Origin: Thiomicrorhabdus sp. Kp2
GTDB taxonomy: Bacteria; Pseudomonadota; Gammaproteobacteria; Thiomicrospirales; Thiomicrospiraceae
Direction: 5' to 3'
Length of the DNA stretch: 64,000 bases
Assembly: GCF_000478585.1 (NCBI RefSeq)
Contig: NZ_ARWI01000001.1
Coordinates: forward strand, 1,240,001-1,304,000
In this document: positions 1 through 15,568 of the stretch, one piece after another
How the letters are laid out: every line of letters starts with the position of its first letter
Numbering within the stretch: the first letter of the stretch is position 1
Translations under genes and position numbers: made by a program
Notes under the pieces: model-generated
Told to the model about the DNA's origin: nothing
The model's input: the letters and a program-made list of their open reading frames with translations, nothing else
Database searches by the model: none

Positions 1-584
1 ATAAAATCATATGCCCCCTTATTAACCATAATCAATAGACAGTTTCGAACTTCCTGCCCCTCTAAAGAACTGCCACCAGTATTTAACCTTTGAAACAAAT
101 CATATTTAGCATTGTCGTCACTTTCTTTCTTAATGATTTTAAAATCGATTTTATAGCGTTTAAAATCCCTTTGAACTTCTATAGGCAAAGCTTTGTCGCC
201 AAACTCAGATTTCCATACTGTTCCATCTAAATCTGGAATATATTTTGTTTTCTCAAGAACTAACGGTTCTAAAGGCTCACCATTTTCATTTTTATACTCG
301 CCAGTGAAAGACAAAATAGTTGCTAACCTTTGCAGCCCATCAACTAAGTCCCATATACCGTCTTCTCTTTGGGACACAAAAAATGATGGCAAAGGTATGC
401 CCATTAGAATTGATTCAATCAAGCTTGATTTTTGGTACTCATCCCAACGATAGACCCTCTGAAATTCTGGATGAATATCAATTTCACCATCCCTATACAG
501 ATTTATAACTTCACCAATTGACATTGGGTAAGCATCCGTTGAAATCTTTCTCTTATTTTCTTCAATTTCTTCGATTAAGCTCAT
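1..584 (-). CDS. DUF262 (ParB/GmrSD-N-like) domain protein, 3' end missing
   Basis: An open frame of 194 codons starts at the ATG complementary to 582-584, after a GAGGG-type ribosome site, and runs off the left edge. The fragment has the hallmarks of the DUF262 N-terminal domain: a QRxYxW-like stretch near residues 42-48, VDGLQRLATI at 81-90, and FQRLNTGGSSL followed by QEVRN at about 164-181. In this family the DGxQR motif belongs to a ParB/Srx-like nucleotide-binding fold. Members include the N-terminal half of GmrSD type IV restriction enzymes and many uncharacterised defence-linked proteins. It lies downstream of the nuclease and helicase genes, on the same strand and 32 bp away, so it is probably co-transcribed. 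Without the C-terminus the subfamily cannot be assigned. Confidence 0.75.
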   Translation of the reverse strand, partial: MSLIEEIEENKRKISTDAYPMSIGEVINLYRDGEIDIHPEFQRVYRWDEYQKSSLIESILMGIPLPSFFVSQREDGIWDLVDGLQRLATILSFTGEYKNENGEPLEPLVLEKTKYIPDLDGTVWKSEFGDKALPIEVQRDFKRYKIDFKIIKKESDDNAKYDLFQRLNTGGSSLEGQEVRNCLLIMVNKGAYDF

Positions 585-616
585 CTATAAATACCCTCTA
601 CTTGAAAAAAGTTCTT

Positions 617-1060
617 TCACTGACACCAATCAGTCTTAGTTCTACCGTCATAACTTACAGCAAGTCCATTCCTAATAAGACTTTTCCCTAAGTCTTGCCC
701 ATCAATTGATACATCCGCAAGAATACGAAAGTATTTCCCCCTGTCTATATCCTGTAATTCAATTCTTTTGGCTCCGCGAAGCATCTGAACAGTATGCTGT
801 TTAGCTTTTCTAGCCAACTCTTTTTCTAGCTGACATTTACCTCGTAGTTCTGGTGTATCAATACCTTTTACTCGAACCGGAATTCTCTGCCCGACAATAG
901 CCGGCCAAGCATTGATATTCACTCGAAAAGTATCGCCATCGTAGATACTCGTCACTTCATCAACAACGACAGGGCCATAACTTTTACCAGATGCTTGAAC
1001 TACTTCAGCTAAAGCAAAAAGACAAAAAATAAACAAAACTCTGCCAGCAAGCTTAATCAT
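617..1060 (-). CDS. Secreted thermonuclease-like (SNase) protein
   Basis: The 147-residue protein starts with a hydrophobic signal-like segment (about residues 7-23, possible cleavage after VQA), so it is probably exported. The mature part is a staphylococcal-nuclease fold: DGDTFRV at 41-47, RVKGIDTPE at 63-71 (the Arg, Asp and Glu expected at the active site) and YFRILADV at 110-117 carrying the second catalytic Arg. Two Cys (76 and 146) could form a disulfide in the periplasm. The family cleaves DNA or RNA in a Ca2+-dependent way. The ATG overlaps the TGA of the upstream helicase gene, which indicates translational coupling. A periplasmic nuclease coupled to a cytoplasmic helicase is odd. 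It may be simple cargo or act on incoming DNA. Confidence 0.8.
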   Translation of the reverse strand: MIKLAGRVLFIFCLFALAEVVQASGKSYGPVVVDEVTSIYDGDTFRVNINAWPAIVGQRIPVRVKGIDTPELRGKCQLEKELARKAKQHTVQMLRGAKRIELQDIDRGKYFRILADVSIDGQDLGKSLIRNGLAVSYDGRTKTDWCQ

Positions 1061-3660
1061 GGTCTTTCTTCTAAATAAGACTTAGCAACTTTACTCTTAA
1101 GACTATTCTTTAAACTAAGCACATCAACACCATTTGCCTGGAGTACTTCAATAGCCTGTGCCCTCCAAACTAAATCGCCTGGCTCAACAAATGTTTTTCT
1201 AATTTCTCGCATGGTTCTCATCGCAATCTGAGCCCATTCTTTAAAATCCGCTAACGTCCAAAAAAAGAATCCAGAAAGATGAGGCAATGCACCTGAATTG
1301 GCAGTCAAAACAGGTGATACCATTACAGAGATAATTTCGACATTCTCAGAAGAGCACGTCGGAACATTTGCTCTTATCCATGAAGGGTGTGTAGCTGCTT
1401 GTCTAGCCTTGGTGGCATTTAAGGAAGAAGTATCCTCCGCACCAGCGTAATCTTCAAAAACAATACAGAAATCTCCTAATTGCCACCAAGGATCCGGAGA
1501 AGCATCAGATTCAACTTTTCCGGCATCATAACCCAAATGCTCACCTAATAGCTTCTGAGCGTTTTCAAAAGTTGACTCATTCTCGAATCCTTCTAAAATT
1601 TGTCGTTCTCTTTGAGAATAACTTCGATCATGCCTTGTTCCAAGAGAACTAAGCACGGCTTCAATTTTCTCCACTTGCAGGACTACTAATTCGTGAAGAG
1701 AATCTGTCTCAAGTATGCTTGGGTCTAATTCTAAGTGTTGAGACAACTTAACTAACCAAGGAACACTCTTTGCTGCTTTTTTTGCTGCCTTATAGTGTTC
1801 CATCGCTTTTACATTAAAGGCTAAATTACCATCTGATACGGCTAGCTTTGCAGCTGAACCAGCAAGATACTCCCAAAGAGCTCGATAACCTCCAAGTTGA
1901 CCATCAGTAAGAACTCCAATAACAGATTCTGCACAAGAAACTGCTTCTGTATAATCTTTCTGCCATAGAGCCATCTGATATTCAACTTCGAACTTTACTG
2001 CTTCAGATAACTGCTCAATGCTTGGAAAAGGAACTTTTTCAGCCCTATTCCGCTCTTCTACAATCATTTGATTTGCAGCATCCCATTCATCCCCATTTTC
2101 GAGAAACAGAGCAAAGTTTTCCTCAAAATCTAAAATGCTCTTGTCTTTCGATTGTGCTACCCCAAACGAAAGTTCGGCTTGAAGCTCAGGATGAAAATGC
2201 TGTCTTCTGCTTCGATCAGAGAGATAGTCCGGCAATTCTTCACCACTCACAACTACAGCAGAATAATCCTCCAATGACCTAGTACATCGTCCAATTGCTT
2301 GTAAAACTCTTGTTTGAACCCTCTCATTAAATAGTAAATTTGCACCCATTCTGCTCATGAAGAAGCGTTCTTGAGCATTAACAGCTTTCGGAAGCCCTTC
2401 AATAAACAGTAATCGACACTCTTCACCCGGAAAATCTATACCATCATATCTATTAGCGACCACTGCAACAGAACCAGTTGACTCAACAAAACTCTGCTTT
2501 GATTTCTCTATATCTTCAGCTGAGAACACTTCAAGAGATAAATTTTCTTCTATATCTTCAGATATATGATTTTTCAGGTTGTCAGACGGTACTAGAATCA
2601 AACTGCGGTCTGCCTTTTTAATAAGAGAACGTCTCAATTTGACTTCGTCTTCATCTTTTAAAGACAGACTTGGAAACATAAAAAAGCGTCGCCCAACGCC
2701 TTGTAGATCCCAGCCATCAGGGACGGGGAGCCTTAAGATTTTTTTCCTTCCCATCAAACGCTCTAAATCCCCACCTTCTCCCAGAGTTGCGGACATATAG
2801 ATTCTCTGTTTAGGATTATTAAATGAAGGAAGCTCCCAAGTAGGAGCAATTATTGGCCTGATAACAATTTCAGAAAATGAAATATAAATATGACATGAGC
2901 TCAGATTATTGCGAAGCATACTCCACGAATATTTAAGGTCGCTATCCGCAGTATAAGTATCCATAATATCAACGAGATCGTCATGAATTTCCAATAAAGA
3001 TGGTGAAGGGATTTTATCAACCCATGAAGAATCCAAAGGGTTTTCCCATTTACCCGTCATTTTTGTGTAACTTGTCGCATCAATATAAGGCTTTAGTACC
3101 GATGCTAAAACAGAGTGCAAAGCAGTATGCTTATCATTAAACCTATCTACATCCAAGGACCACATCTTAGCCACATAGTTTTCAGCTGAATGAGCATCGT
3201 CTATGATGATGACATCCGCATCTGAAAAATATGGATTCGTATTAAACAAACTGCTATATGTCGTTATTGCTATTGCATCACCCTGTTTGTAACTTGTTTT
3301 GTCCGAAGGTGAATAATCTCGTTGAGATCCTGTAAAACCGATTACATTTAATCCATATTTGTGCTCTGCTTGATCAACAGCCTGATAGACCAATTGTCGG
3401 GTTGGGCAAAGATAAACAATTTTCTCTTTATATTTTCTGCGACGCCACTCAGCAATCAGTAACCCCACTAAAGTTTTCCCACTTCCCGTTGGCAATTGCA
3501 ATGCAACGTCAGGGGCATTTTGAGCCTCAGAAGCATAACGCTCCATCATGTCTTTCTGATGCGGCAATACATCTGGAAACTTCCTCCTGGTTAACTCTCT
3601 AAATAACAAGTCTGGACTAGCTGGTGCTAAAGTTCTCTGTGATATTTTTGTAAAAGCCAT
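1057..3660 (-). CDS. Superfamily 2 DEAD/DEAH-type helicase, DinG/XPD-like C-terminal half
   Basis: The 867-residue protein has Walker A PTGSGKT at 57-63, a motif Ia-like CPTRQL at 85-90 and a DDAH Walker B box at 154-157. A C-terminal helicase lobe contains VANRYDGIDFPG and the motif VI-like QAIGRCTRS, which resembles the Helicase_C_2 region of DinG/XPD proteins. No conserved Fe-S cysteine cluster is apparent between the motor motifs. The last roughly 350 residues are rich in helices and match nothing I recognise. It likely unwinds or translocates on nucleic acid using ATP. It starts 12 bp after the TnsE-like gene and overlaps the SNase gene by ATGA, so the three form one operon. As mobile-element cargo it could belong to a defence module, but no named system is recognised. 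Confidence 0.8.
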   Translation of the reverse strand: MAFTKISQRTLAPASPDLLFRELTRRKFPDVLPHQKDMMERYASEAQNAPDVALQLPTGSGKTLVGLLIAEWRRRKYKEKIVYLCPTRQLVYQAVDQAEHKYGLNVIGFTGSQRDYSPSDKTSYKQGDAIAITTYSSLFNTNPYFSDADVIIIDDAHSAENYVAKMWSLDVDRFNDKHTALHSVLASVLKPYIDATSYTKMTGKWENPLDSSWVDKIPSPSLLEIHDDLVDIMDTYTADSDLKYSWSMLRNNLSSCHIYISFSEIVIRPIIAPTWELPSFNNPKQRIYMSATLGEGGDLERLMGRKKILRLPVPDGWDLQGVGRRFFMFPSLSLKDEDEVKLRRSLIKKADRSLILVPSDNLKNHISEDIEENLSLEVFSAEDIEKSKQSFVESTGSVAVVANRYDGIDFPGEECRLLFIEGLPKAVNAQERFFMSRMGANLLFNERVQTRVLQAIGRCTRSLEDYSAVVVSGEELPDYLSDRSRRQHFHPELQAELSFGVAQSKDKSILDFEENFALFLENGDEWDAANQMIVEERNRAEKVPFPSIEQLSEAVKFEVEYQMALWQKDYTEAVSCAESVIGVLTDGQLGGYRALWEYLAGSAAKLAVSDGNLAFNVKAMEHYKAAKKAAKSVPWLVKLSQHLELDPSILETDSLHELVVLQVEKIEAVLSSLGTRHDRSYSQRERQILEGFENESTFENAQKLLGEHLGYDAGKVESDASPDPWWQLGDFCIVFEDYAGAEDTSSLNATKARQAATHPSWIRANVPTCSSENVEIISVMVSPVLTANSGALPHLSGFFFWTLADFKEWAQIAMRTMREIRKTFVEPGDLVWRAQAIEVLQANGVDVLSLKNSLKSKVAKSYLEERP

Positions 3661-3672
3661 AATTCTCTAATC

Positions 3673-5307
3673 CTAATTAAACCCTGCATCCATCAAGTTT
3701 TTTAAACGCTGAGCCAAAGGCTTAGAATGCTTAAAAACTTTCACCTGACCCAGCAAGTCTTCTAAGGCACCTTCTGCCTCAAGCAATAAACCATCTTTTG
3801 CTTTGATACATTCCATAATCGCGTAAACAAACTCACATTCAAGCGGCTCTGACGGATAACCAAACATCAATCCACGATACTTATCACTTTTTGTCCTTGG
3901 TTGAATTTCAACAAAATAAAAAAGTTGCCCGTCATAATTCACTCTAATAAGAGCGATCTTCCGATAGGTAATTGCATATTCAGAGGGGAATGTGTCTTTT
4001 ATCTTCTTTCGCTTAGTGTGATGCCAAAGCATTTTTCCCGCATCTTTTTCTCCATTATTAGGAAATGAAATTGTGAAGAACGAACCTGTGACCACTTCAC
4101 AAATAACGTCATCACACCTTAAGATAGCGTAGCCATTCATCTTCTCATCTAAAGCACTCAGTGCCTCTAAAGCCTCAATAAAATCTTGCTGAATACCTGA
4201 TGAATCCTCTACTGAGGTATTACTAATATCTAACTTACCAATTTGATCATTGTCAGAAAATTCACTACCTGAAGAAAATTGCTCTGGCTCATTGGCATCT
4301 TTATCTCTAGGGGCTGTAATAGGGTCATTTCTTTCAACTAAAATCTCATTTACTATGTTTGAGTCATAAACATCAACACCTGAATCAATATATTGAGTAT
4401 TACTACCTGTTCCTGGTGGAGTTGAGCTTTGAACATCTATTTCATCATGTTCGGTGGTTTTTGAATTTGGCTTACGACCAACATTATGCTTATTAGGTTT
4501 GGTAGAAATTTTTTCCTTTATCTTGACTAAAGACATTTCAGTAGGGGTTCTAAATTTATTTATTCTATGAACAAAGATTTCCCCATTAATTTCTTCGTAA
4601 GCGGCTTCAAAAGACAATTTAGTTGGGTGGTATGGAAGAGCATCAATAAAGCGCTCACCTTGATTTATTTGTGAGCGAATTTTTGATAAACGTTGACGAG
4701 TAACGGGATGATTCGCAATATAAGCAAGGAATACAGCATTAGAACGCTCAAAACCCTTTGGAAGAATATATTCCCCATTAATCATTCCCTGCTGACTTTT
4801 CGGCACGAAGTTGTCTACAACACTGTCCAGATCAAAGTTCAATAAAGCTCTACGAATATTCTTGTTTTCAGGGGTATAAAGGGAGGTGAATATTTCTAAT
4901 GATTGTACGTAAACAACCTGGCTTGTCGTTGTAAGAAGCTTAGCTACACGCGTTTTACCAATTTCTTCATCAGGTCGGTATTTACTAATGACCTGATGGA
5001 GATTGAGAAACTCAACCTGCTGGCTAGAAAGATCAAATTCAAACCATCCTTTTCTTAGGCTTGTTTTGTCTTGAAAATCATTTTGAATGCCTACACGTCC
5101 ATTCCAAACACTGCCTATACGCAATACGTCAAGCTCTGCAATAGCAGCTGTAGAATATTCAATCTGATTATTATCAATTCTTCTGAATGCAATAGTAACT
5201 AATGGATTTGAACGATCAGATGTGTTTTGTTTTACACGACAAAAAGCCCTAACAACTCTTTGAAGATTGTCATTGAATAATGTTTCTATACGAAAAGTTT
5301 TAGACAA
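3673..5307 (-). CDS. TnsE-like transposition protein (putative)
   Basis: The chosen start is TTG (5305-5307), giving 544 residues, because an AGGAGG sits seven bases before it. A longer ATG frame from 5343 lacks such a site. The layout recalls Tn7 TnsE (about 540 residues): a mixed N-terminal domain, a helical segment (SLEIFTSLYTPENKNIRRALL near 135-155), a charged low-complexity linker (about 260-370) and a compact C-terminal domain containing AITYRKIALIRV and FYFVEIQPR. TnsE directs Tn7 to replicating or conjugating DNA through the sliding clamp. The assignment rests on overall pattern and on position beside an element end in comM, not on a diagnostic catalytic motif. It lies immediately inside the element end, whereas in Tn7 tnsE is the last gene of the tnsABCDE run. 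Confidence 0.5.
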   Translation of the reverse strand: MSKTFRIETLFNDNLQRVVRAFCRVKQNTSDRSNPLVTIAFRRIDNNQIEYSTAAIAELDVLRIGSVWNGRVGIQNDFQDKTSLRKGWFEFDLSSQQVEFLNLHQVISKYRPDEEIGKTRVAKLLTTTSQVVYVQSLEIFTSLYTPENKNIRRALLNFDLDSVVDNFVPKSQQGMINGEYILPKGFERSNAVFLAYIANHPVTRQRLSKIRSQINQGERFIDALPYHPTKLSFEAAYEEINGEIFVHRINKFRTPTEMSLVKIKEKISTKPNKHNVGRKPNSKTTEHDEIDVQSSTPPGTGSNTQYIDSGVDVYDSNIVNEILVERNDPITAPRDKDANEPEQFSSGSEFSDNDQIGKLDISNTSVEDSSGIQQDFIEALEALSALDEKMNGYAILRCDDVICEVVTGSFFTISFPNNGEKDAGKMLWHHTKRKKIKDTFPSEYAITYRKIALIRVNYDGQLFYFVEIQPRTKSDKYRGLMFGYPSEPLECEFVYAIMECIKAKDGLLLEAEGALEDLLGQVKVFKHSKPLAQRLKNLMDAGFN

Positions 5308-5314
5308 TATTACA

Positions 5315-5320
5315 CCTCCT
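5315..5320 (-). promoter_or_regulatory. Ribosome binding site that fixes a TTG start
   Basis: AGGAGG on the minus strand, seven bases before the TTG at 5305-5307. It supports initiation of the TnsE-like protein at TTG rather than at the upstream ATG at 5343. Confidence 0.7.
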
Positions 5321-5397
5321 TGATAAGAAGATGTCTTGACCAAAAATATATTCTGAAATGTATCTATTAGTGAGCTTGAATAGCTCTTTTAAACATC

Positions 5398-5437
5398 TGT
5401 AGCAAAAACTATTGTAATGTAGCAAAAACTTTTGTAA
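5398..5437. repeat. Two tandem 20-bp repeats at the element end
   Basis: TGTAGCAAAAACTATTGTAA (5398-5417) is followed directly by the same 20 bases with one change, A to T at position 14 (5418-5437). They stop a few bases short of recognisable comM sequence. Adjacent direct repeats of about 20 bp just inside a terminus are typical of TnsB-type transposase binding sites, so I read them as the transposase-binding end of the element. Confidence 0.7.
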
Positions 5438-6331
5438 ATGGCACCCACCACCGACCATTGCCGCTGCAGAAGCGGTATGATGAGGATGAATAAACGGTCT
5501 AACGTAAAAAGATTCTTGAGTGATAACCTCACCAGAAATAGATCTGATATTAGCCGCCTCAATGGCTTCTTCTGCTGTTAAATCAGGTAAAAGGGTAATC
5601 AGTCTCGATGCCAACATACTTTTACCAGAACCTGGTGGGCCAACCATCATCATAGAATGATGACCACTTGCCGAAATCTCAAGCGCACGCTTAGCTTGTG
5701 ACTGTCCTCGAACATCGGCAATGTCTTCAATGTAACGCGTTTGAGAATTTGACGAGTCTTGAATTCGGTCTAAATCCATAGAAAAAGAGGGGGGGTCACC
5801 TAATAAAACCTGGCAGGCCTCTCTGAGGTCTTTAACAAGAAACAGCGTTTCATTCAGCGCGGGATATGTTTCAATTAATAGTTGTGCTTCGTGAAGGTTA
5901 TCAAATGGAAGAATAATCTTTTTATTCTCAGAATGAGAGGCGAGCAGGCTTGAGATAGCACCGTGGATTCCGCGCAACTCACCCGTTAATGCAAGCTCTC
6001 CAAAAAACTCAAAACGGTTTACATCACTTATTTGCAACTGCTCTGTTGCTAATAATATACCAATGGCTATAGGCAAGTCATAACGCCCTCCCGTTTTAGG
6101 CAAATCAGCGGGTGCTAGATTAACCGTAATACGTTTAGGAGGTAACTTAAAACCCGAACTAATCAGCGCACTTCTGACCCTATCCTTACTTTCTTTTACC
6201 GATGCCTCTGGTAAACCTACAATTGAAAATGAGGGTAGACCATTACTGGCATGCACTTCAACCACCACTTTTGGTGAGTCCATACCAAGAACAGCACGGG
6301 TATTTAAGCTGGCAACCAACACTCTAGTACT

Positions 6332-14455: not shown

Positions 14456-15568
14456 TTATTTGATTCTGCGCCAACGAGCGGCTGACATAGCTTCAATTTC
14501 GCCCGCCAACTCCAATAGCATAAGCTCGCCTTGCAAGCTTGAAACAGGTTGCTTAGTTAACACCACTAACTCATCTAAACTGGTCGGTTCATAACCAATG
14601 CTGTTTAGCAAAGCACTTTTTGATTGGTTGTTCGGCTGAGTTACCAGGCCTGGTAACTCTTGCGTTGTTTGCAAATCCAAACGATATTGTAAATTAGCTG
14701 ACAACTCCTCTAACACATCTTGACCAGACTCCACTAATTTAGCGCCTTGCTTAATCAACTGGTGACACCCTTTGGCTTGTGGATTATGAATAGAGCCAGG
14801 CACAGCAAACACTTCTCTACCTTGTTCTAAAGCGGTTCTTGCCGTAATTAATGAACCACTTTTTAACGCCGCCTCAACCACCAAAGTACCCAGACTCAAA
14901 CCACTGATAATTCGGTTTCTTTTAGGAAAATTGTAATTCAGCGGTTTTGTACCCAGCACAAACTCTGAAATCATCACTCCTTCTTCTACAATTTGATGCC
15001 CCAAACCTTGATTGGAAGCAGGGTAAATACGGTCTAACCCTGTTGCCACTACCGCAACGGTTTTACCCATACCTTGTAACCCGCCCTGATGGGCCGCAGT
15101 ATCAATCCCCAAAGCTAAACCACTGGTAATACCCAACCCTTGTTGCGAAAGAAAGCGTGCAAAATCTTTGGCCGTTTCCATACCCTGCTTGGACGCGTGG
15201 CGACTCCCCACTATCGCAACTTGTGGATCACTTAACAGTTCAACATTACCTCTCACTCCAAGCAGAATAGGCGGGTCGGTTATCTCTTTAAGTGGCTGCG
15301 GAAACGATGTTGAGCCAATAGGTAGCCAGGCCTGGTTATCTTTTTCTGCCCACTCAAGTGCTTCATCCACACGAATTTTGCACTCATCGCTTAATAAATC
15401 ATTAACCTGTTTAGCGGATAATAACTCTCTATTTTGCCAGTCAGAAGGGGAACTATTTAGTGCATTTTCTAAACTGCCAAAATATGTATGAATGGCTTGT
15501 AACTGCTGAAACGAAACGTAGCAAGCGTGAAAGGCAAGCATTGAGGGTAAATCGGCAAAATTTGACAT
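14456..15568 (-). CDS. dprA: DNA processing protein DprA
   Basis: The 370-residue protein has the Rossmann-fold core: VAIVGSRHASKQGMETA, SGLALGIDTAAHQGGL and SLGTLVVEAALKSGSLITARTALEQGREVFAVPGS. It also has a short C-terminal winged-helix-like domain. DprA loads RecA onto single-stranded DNA entering during natural transformation, so this host keeps at least part of a competence pathway although comM is broken. One exact palindrome (14643-14654, read as LPGLV) and one near copy (15325-15336, read as NQAWL) lie within the coding sequence. It is divergent from def. Confidence 0.95.
   Translation of the reverse strand: MSNFADLPSMLAFHACYVSFQQLQAIHTYFGSLENALNSSPSDWQNRELLSAKQVNDLLSDECKIRVDEALEWAEKDNQAWLPIGSTSFPQPLKEITDPPILLGVRGNVELLSDPQVAIVGSRHASKQGMETAKDFARFLSQQGLGITSGLALGIDTAAHQGGLQGMGKTVAVVATGLDRIYPASNQGLGHQIVEEGVMISEFVLGTKPLNYNFPKRNRIISGLSLGTLVVEAALKSGSLITARTALEQGREVFAVPGSIHNPQAKGCHQLIKQGAKLVESGQDVLEELSANLQYRLDLQTTQELPGLVTQPNNQSKSALLNSIGYEPTSLDELVVLTKQPVSSLQGELMLLELAGEIEAMSAARWRRIK
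14643..14654. repeat. Palindrome copy inside dprA
   Basis: Exact ACCAGGCCTGGT with arms that stay perfectly paired over 22 bp (14638-14659). In the dprA frame it encodes Pro-Gly-Leu-Val in a poorly conserved linker. Confidence 0.9.
15325..15336. repeat. Palindrome near-copy inside dprA
   Basis: GCCAGGCCTGGT, one mismatch from the 12-mer. On the dprA strand it reads Gln-Ala-Trp. Confidence 0.7.

Follow-up and report, generated by a model that had tools for sequence, protein, structure and literature searches.

A Tn6022-family Tn7-like transposon splits comM in Thiomicrorhabdus sp. Kp2 and carries a TniQ-TnsF pair apparently exchanged independently of TnsABC and TnsE

Introduction

The comM gene helps bacteria to retain imported DNA. 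A reading frame in Thiomicrorhabdus sp. Kp2 begins as ComM and ends as something else, raising the questions of what has entered the gene, how it was directed there and whether its parts share one history. We analysed a 64,000-nt stretch, hereafter the window (bases 1240001-1304000 of C1, the single 2,725,706-bp contig of this one-contig genome), together with the sequence to its left and with other genomes. The initial annotation of the window had proposed that a mobile element breaks comM at a Tn7-family hotspot, which agrees with AbaR/Tn6022, where comM is split after the same GGG. The evidence makes it very probable that a 26,019-bp Tn7-like transposon of the Tn6022 family has inserted into the sole comM found in Kp2, probably aimed by TnsF, and that its TniQ-TnsF pair has been swapped independently of TnsABC and TnsE.

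Results

A 26-kb element separates the two halves of comM

The frame at window positions 5300-6322 (minus strand; Pfam ChlI, 4e-44, and Mg_chelatase, 9e-37) follows ComM through AMVGGG, residue 293, and then runs into element DNA, as initially annotated; residues 1-293 occupy window 5444-6322. The 3´ half, expected to the left of the window, is present there in an ORF at C1:1218751-1219512, of which C1:1218751-1219424 is comM. Chance likeness to ComM was rejected, as both halves match whole domains. The initial annotation had left room for an intact comM elsewhere, and this too was rejected. Since Pfam Mg_chelatase_C matches the contig at one place and, of four ChlI places, the split comM alone spans the whole domain, no second ComM was found in the contig.

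Between the halves lies the transposon (C1:1219425-1245443), whose right-hand 5.4 kb, delimited by the junctions and the length, forms window 1-5443 and whose bulk is left of the window. Its ends, TGACATTTCCAGAAGTTAATGCTACA and TGCCATTTACAAAAGTTTTTGCTACA, are almost identical to each other in inverted orientation; the left one is the second end anticipated for such an element. The two tandem 20-bp repeats already recognized in the right end, at window 5398-5417 (inner) and 5418-5437 (outer), read TGTAGCAAAAACT(A/T)TTGTAA and resemble TnsB sites; they hold the two GCTACA cores of this end, and the left end has four. Flanking the element is the predicted 5-bp target duplication, with one mismatch: GCCAC on the left (C1:1219420-1219424) and CCCAC, on the plus strand, on the right (window 5444-5448), alike at four of five bases (chance of at least four, 0.016). 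The pentamer pairs at the same junction, codon ~293, are identical in three genomes of the family (G419, G422 and G415), in Guyparkeria and in AbaR.

The junctions are taken from the assembly, and the split could in principle be an assembly or rearrangement artefact with no insertion. We regard this as extremely improbable, however, given the matching inverted ends, the nearly identical pentamers, the complete tns set described below and other, independent genomes with the junction at this codon.

The imperfect duplication and the end bases also bear on a second alternative, in which the element is a decayed island, no longer mobile, whose pentamers and ends changed after insertion and left it uncuttable. 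Tn7-like elements usually end in TGT, and the third base is T in AbaR, Guyparkeria and G422, whereas Kp2 has TGA on the left and TGC on the right. Yet the TGA left end also is found in G415 and G419, both with identical pentamers, and in G406, and looks like a clade trait; TGT is therefore not required of Tn6022-family members, and decay was rejected as the cause of the TGA left end. All six transposition genes, moreover, are open frames. We thus consider decay unlikely, though worth keeping in view, and the Kp2 element probably still is mobile.

The element encodes a Tn6022-type transposition machinery

Read from the left end, the genes encode TnsA (Pfam Tn7_TnsA-like_N, 3e-15), TnsB (Mu-transpos_C, 2e-10), TnsC (TniB, 6e-57), a short TniQ of 358 aa (1.6e-21) and, overlapping the tniQ gene, a 497-aa TnsF homologue rich in cysteine pairs; TnsE is encoded at the far end, on the opposite strand. 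The tnsABC genes that the initial annotation had called for between the comM halves are thus found, with tniQ, tnsF and tnsE in addition. TnsF aligns over its length with the TnsF proteins of AbaR (31% identity) and Guyparkeria, with the cysteine pairs conserved; a TnsF of the Tn6022 family would be expected to have zinc fingers at its N terminus and a tyrosine-recombinase domain that is incomplete and dead. In the available portions of PMC10293859, the TnsF of the Tn6022 family (formerly orf3/tniE) is a 498-aa protein encoded in an operon with a 369-aa short TniQ, tnsE is on the opposite strand, and insertion of AjTn6022 from A. johnsonii into comM requires TnsF.

The tnsE gene (window 3673-5343, minus strand; 556 aa from TTG or 546 aa from GTG at 5313) was assigned by fold and by tblastn. 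In a structural model of the product (mean pLDDT 62), the segment from residue ~370 to 546 matches the C-terminal domain of TnsE in three entries (Z scores of 11.1-11.5), the next entry being at 5.9. Foldseek with the same model ranked TnsE (E 0.42-0.72, probability 0.80-0.92) under unrelated rows, and it was the structural aligner that separated TnsE. TnsE was not found by sequence or profile searches of the PDB or, in three genomes, by the Pfam TnsE_C model, and NCBIfam names none of TnsC, TniQ, TnsF, TnsE and a 532-aa cargo protein described below. A tblastn search with Kp2 TnsE detected proteins in the corresponding position in AbaR (2e-8 and 2e-7), in A. tandoii (4e-7) and in Vreelandella titanicae (1e-7). 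Separately, a hypothetical protein on an Aliarcobacter plasmid (L052:3977-5755) is TnsE-like (3e-16 to Kp2 TnsE), and none of the genes annotated around it is a tns gene.

Comparison with known systems places the Kp2 element. Tn6022/AbaR (AbaR record NZ_CP077849.1, L051) has the same TnsABC, short TniQ overlapping TnsF and opposite-strand TnsE at the far end, and has entered comM behind the same codon, duplicating 5 bp; in this record comM is broken after ALVGGG, and the pentamer on each side is ACCGC. The two differ in sequence (~39% identity for TnsB), in the TGA left end of Kp2 and in cargo, which consists of defence genes in Kp2 and of resistance genes in the AbaR stretch read. The element of Guyparkeria sp. 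SCN-R1 (G158; L048/L067) likewise shares the gene order and the comM codon, with GCCGC on both sides, but is shorter, contains an IS3-like gene by eye, and is 43% identical in TnsB and 32% in TnsF. Tn7 has the TnsABC core and the TnsE C-terminal fold in common with Kp2 but uses a long TnsD at glmS, according to the accessible part of PMC11406308, instead of TniQ and TnsF at comM. Two further systems are reported to share comM as a target: the Tsy transposon, with an active TnsF homologue (PMC10293859, in part), and a type I-B1 CAST, with a crRNA (PMC11406308, in part). In the Kp2 element, however, no YRec/Tsy or Cas genes were found among the proteins in family searches, and an Rfam search of L010 gave no match. 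The Kp2 element belongs, as a diverged new member at a known site, to the Tn6022 family, which is already known to target comM.

Onto these observations (the gene set and its arrangement, the two ends, the near-perfect duplication, the codon shared with relatives and no other intact comM) we place a proposed route of insertion. As in the A. johnsonii element that has been tested, TnsF would bind a conserved part of comM. TnsF would be bridged to TnsC by the short TniQ, and TnsA with TnsB would excise the element and insert it after codon ~293, generating the 5-bp duplication, while the far-end TnsE is probably used for a second route, which leads into conjugative plasmids. Aiming of the Kp2 copy by TnsF is likely, its target specificity being taken from the position of the element, with a TnsF ~31% identical to that of AbaR.

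comM is split repeatedly in the family, at two sites

We surveyed 62 genomes of the family of the window (Thiomicrospiraceae), of which 59 have a ComM match and six a TnsF match. comM is split beside Tn7-like genes in 11 of the 59, with both halves found in nine; two genomes whose comM is cut by contig ends (G423 and G403) were not counted as split. The split is at codon ~293 in five genomes: Kp2, G419, G422 and G415, with both halves, and G375, where the 5´ half is followed by a frame like AbaR TnsE (1e-8) and then by the contig end, and where the 3´ half was searched for and not found. Among the 30 comM loci listed for relatives (52 of 58 genomes matched), 28 continue across codon 293, and those of Kp2 and G375 stop exactly there. 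TnsF was detected in three of 369 genomes drawn from the class (Kp2, G158 and G121) and matches 72 plasmid records, 51 of them from Acinetobacter. Other families of the class, too, have TnsA genes next to a comM C-half (L049 in G121, L169 in G139 and L172 in G076); the TnsF match in G121 is weak, N-terminal alone, and lies in a 690-aa open frame.

Scanning of genomes with names gave 31 TnsF loci, 25-38% identical to Kp2 TnsF in the best segment, and 20 of these have the comM C-half beside the tns genes. For the remaining 11, the contig ends first at four (L065, L076, L080 and L082), L056 has no other Tns match, and at six (L060, L061, L062, L079, L081 and L083) no comM match was found despite room beside TnsA. 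These six loci count against our explanation, as do the pentamer difference at one of five bases, the A and C in place of T at the third end base, and the TnsF elements of G406 and G405, which lie outside comM as far as seen. The G406 element (C1:863549-869449 of that genome, L115) is a TnsABC-TniQ-TnsF set with no adjoining comM, whose left end, TGAC, joins unrelated sequence and which has, by eye, an IS256-like gene past TnsF.

In the other six split genomes, the break is at codons ~373-378, ~80 codons downstream of the codon-293 site and at G-R-C codons. Both halves were found in G391 (L120/L027), G406 (L162), G410 (L163), G412 (L165/L166) and G389 (L164), and the 3´ half only in G369 (L119). 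Junction pentamers are identical in all five genomes with both junctions: GTTGT in G391 and G406, GCTGT in G410 and G412, and GTTGC in G389. Beside the 3´ half, all six encode a TnsB 34-40% identical to that of Kp2, and the four elements with ORFs listed (G391, G406, G410 and G389) have TnsA, TnsB, TnsC and a TniQ frame of 338-391 aa. No TnsF match at 1e-5 was found beside the split comM in any of the six; G406 has one elsewhere. Where TnsE would be expected, a second-site element encodes a 606-aa protein that is unlike Kp2 TnsE in sequence (score 37, lower than the mean of 41.5 after shuffling) and has no match in Pfam or PADLOC. The available text of PMC10293859, PMC11406308 and PMC8649781, and the listings of a literature search, contain no mention of this second comM site.

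The codon-293 element of G415 holds a second-site right end of ~3.5 kb, including the 606-aa protein (C1:326661-331691 of that genome, L114, compared with L163:1209-4833; 97% identity). The two comM lineages, at codon 293 and at the second site, recombine or nest.

TniQ and TnsF have a history apart from TnsABC

Within the codon-293 group, Kp2 and G419 are closely alike in TnsA (86% identity), TnsB (90%), TnsC (92%) and TnsE (75%), in contrast to TniQ (41%) and TnsF (42%), whereas G419 and G422, which share one genus (g2), are alike in TniQ (52%) and TnsF (65%) and distant in TnsB (42%). At the DNA level, likeness between Kp2 and G419 starts at the left end and reaches C1:1223276, 164 bp into tniQ (83%); it resumes at C1:1243674, adjoining the tnsE stop, and continues up to the right end (78%). 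Between these positions there is no match at 1e-5, and thus the cargo differs as well.

We compared trees of TnsABC and of TniQ plus TnsF for 27 rows, comprising 20 of the 31 named loci, the six family elements (Kp2 included) and AbaR. Rows without one of TnsA, TnsB, TnsC, TniQ and TnsF were left out, as were L062, L063, L074, L079 and L081 (near-copies or broken TnsF); the G405 TnsF is cut by a contig end. Two translations were over-long (G419 TnsF, with stops just before its start and just after its end, and G415 TnsB, with a stop before its start); the stops were removed, and a few residues outside the genes entered the trees. In the TnsABC tree, Kp2 is joined with G419 (SH-aLRT 100) and G422 groups with four Acinetobacter rows (100). 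In the TniQ-TnsF tree, G419 is joined with G422 (100) and the six family rows form one clade (98). Approximately unbiased (AU) tests on TnsABC reject G419 with G422 (p 3e-136) and a clade of the six family rows (4e-81), and on TniQ-TnsF they reject Kp2 with G419 (9e-10) and G422 with Acinetobacter (0.004). These values are indicative, because the groups were named after the trees had been seen and the trees were quick ones without a mixture model.

The same pattern might arise with no exchange if TniQ and TnsF evolve much faster than TnsABC, such that Kp2 and G419 merely look swapped. Identities of TniQ and TnsF indeed are below those of TnsABC in most pairs, and the stated limits of the tree tests leave some room for this reading. 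Faster change does not fit, however, with G419 being nearer to G422 than to Kp2 in TniQ and TnsF while its TnsB is far nearer to that of Kp2, with the abrupt end and return of DNA likeness inside tniQ and at the tnsE stop codon, or with the rejection of Kp2 plus G419 and of G419 plus G422 by the AU tests, and we judge it very unlikely. As read from these alignments and trees, TniQ-TnsF is inherited apart from TnsABC and appears to have been exchanged between comM elements independently of TnsABC and TnsE. The few elements at hand suggest that this aiming pair follows the host.

Cargo and host context

The cargo includes a type I Wadjet system in the order JetA-D (PADLOC JetA1 4.5e-59, JetB1 2.9e-27, JetC1 1.6e-163 and JetD1 3.3e-48), adjoined by a WYL regulator. 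Wadjet acts against plasmids. Also present are an 822-aa fused methylase-nuclease with BsuBI/PstI domains, an ImmA/IrrE-like protein and a 177-aa PycTM effector (Pfam 5.8e-10, PADLOC 8e-29). The PycTM gene and that of a 532-aa protein face each other (C1:1226273-1228340, L010:8273-10340). Neither Pfam nor PADLOC nor NCBIfam assigned the latter protein to a family; by eye it begins like a class III cyclase and ends like a degenerate Nudix domain, and it may be an unrecognised Pycsar cyclase. The cargo further includes a HEPN protein paired with a 363-aa DUF262/GmrSD_N protein (Pfam GmrSD_N; PADLOC NsnA, 1.4e-65; whole gene C1:1239493-1240584, its 5´ part at window 3-584, minus strand), an SNase-like protein (window 617-1060, minus strand; Pfam SNase, 2.4e-10) and a PDC-S28 helicase, a candidate defence protein (window 1057-3660, minus strand; PADLOC 6e-108; DEAD and Helicase_C_2 domains).

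From these matches, the Wadjet system, the BsuBI/PstI-like methylase-nuclease, PycTM, the HEPN-DUF262 pair and the PDC-S28 helicase would work in defence. Wadjet (JetD) and ImmA already are on record as cargo of Tn7-like transposons in the available part of PMC8649781. Shared inheritance of the Wadjet cargo is unsupported, the proteins of Kp2 and G415 being just 22-32% identical.

Outside the element, Kp2 has kept dprA, as initially annotated (window 14456-15568, minus strand; Pfam DNA_processg_A, 3.8e-77), and also comEC. In two strains of A. baumannii, curing of AbaR with restoration of comM raised transformation ~1,000- and 300-fold (PMC7508600, available in part). By analogy, the comM break probably lowers transformation in Kp2; since dprA and comEC are retained, DNA uptake may go on at a lower rate.

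Other Tn7-like loci are present in the Kp2 genome. A second set (C1:1390272-1397257, L047:8269-15257) encodes TnsABC and a 468-aa TniQ/TnsD protein and adjoins an HI0933/YhiN-like gene, a location that we take to be that of Tn6230-type elements. This yhiN-side element includes one cluster (C1:1386837-1389719, L047:4837-7719) of a QueC-like protein, a fusion of PfkB and deoxyribosyltransferase and a protein SagB-like by eye, in which PADLOC matched no system apart from QueC. A third set (C1:1000681-1005653, L118:10681-15653) comprises TnsA-, TnsB- and TnsC-like genes with a 485-aa gene, TniQ-like by eye. In addition, a TnsF piece that lacks the first ~117 residues and is 82% identical to G406 TnsF adjoins an IS110-like gene (C1:1378764-1379873, L046:16764-17876), with a further fragment downstream (L046:19551-19930).

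Discussion

The Kp2 element itself is ordinary; the TniQ-TnsF exchange and the second Tn7-like comM site are the newer parts and are worth specialist follow-up. With our confidence evenly divided, we suggest that comM is contested by two Tn7-like lineages at sites ~80 codons apart, one guided by TniQ-TnsF and the other, with no detectable TnsF, perhaps by TniQ alone. In the first, TniQ-TnsF would follow the host lineage and TnsABC would come from elsewhere, as if a locally fitted aiming module had been taken by recombination with an element already in comM.

The natural exchange of TniQ-TnsF offers ready-made pairs for asking if a target selector can be moved from one Tn7-like core to another, and a different means of targeting comM may be in use at the second site. 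With comM split in 11 of 59 genomes, the hotspot is clearly established for an environmental family that is distant from Acinetobacter. Insertions into comM may repeatedly turn down gene uptake in this family, in Kp2 alongside a Wadjet system.
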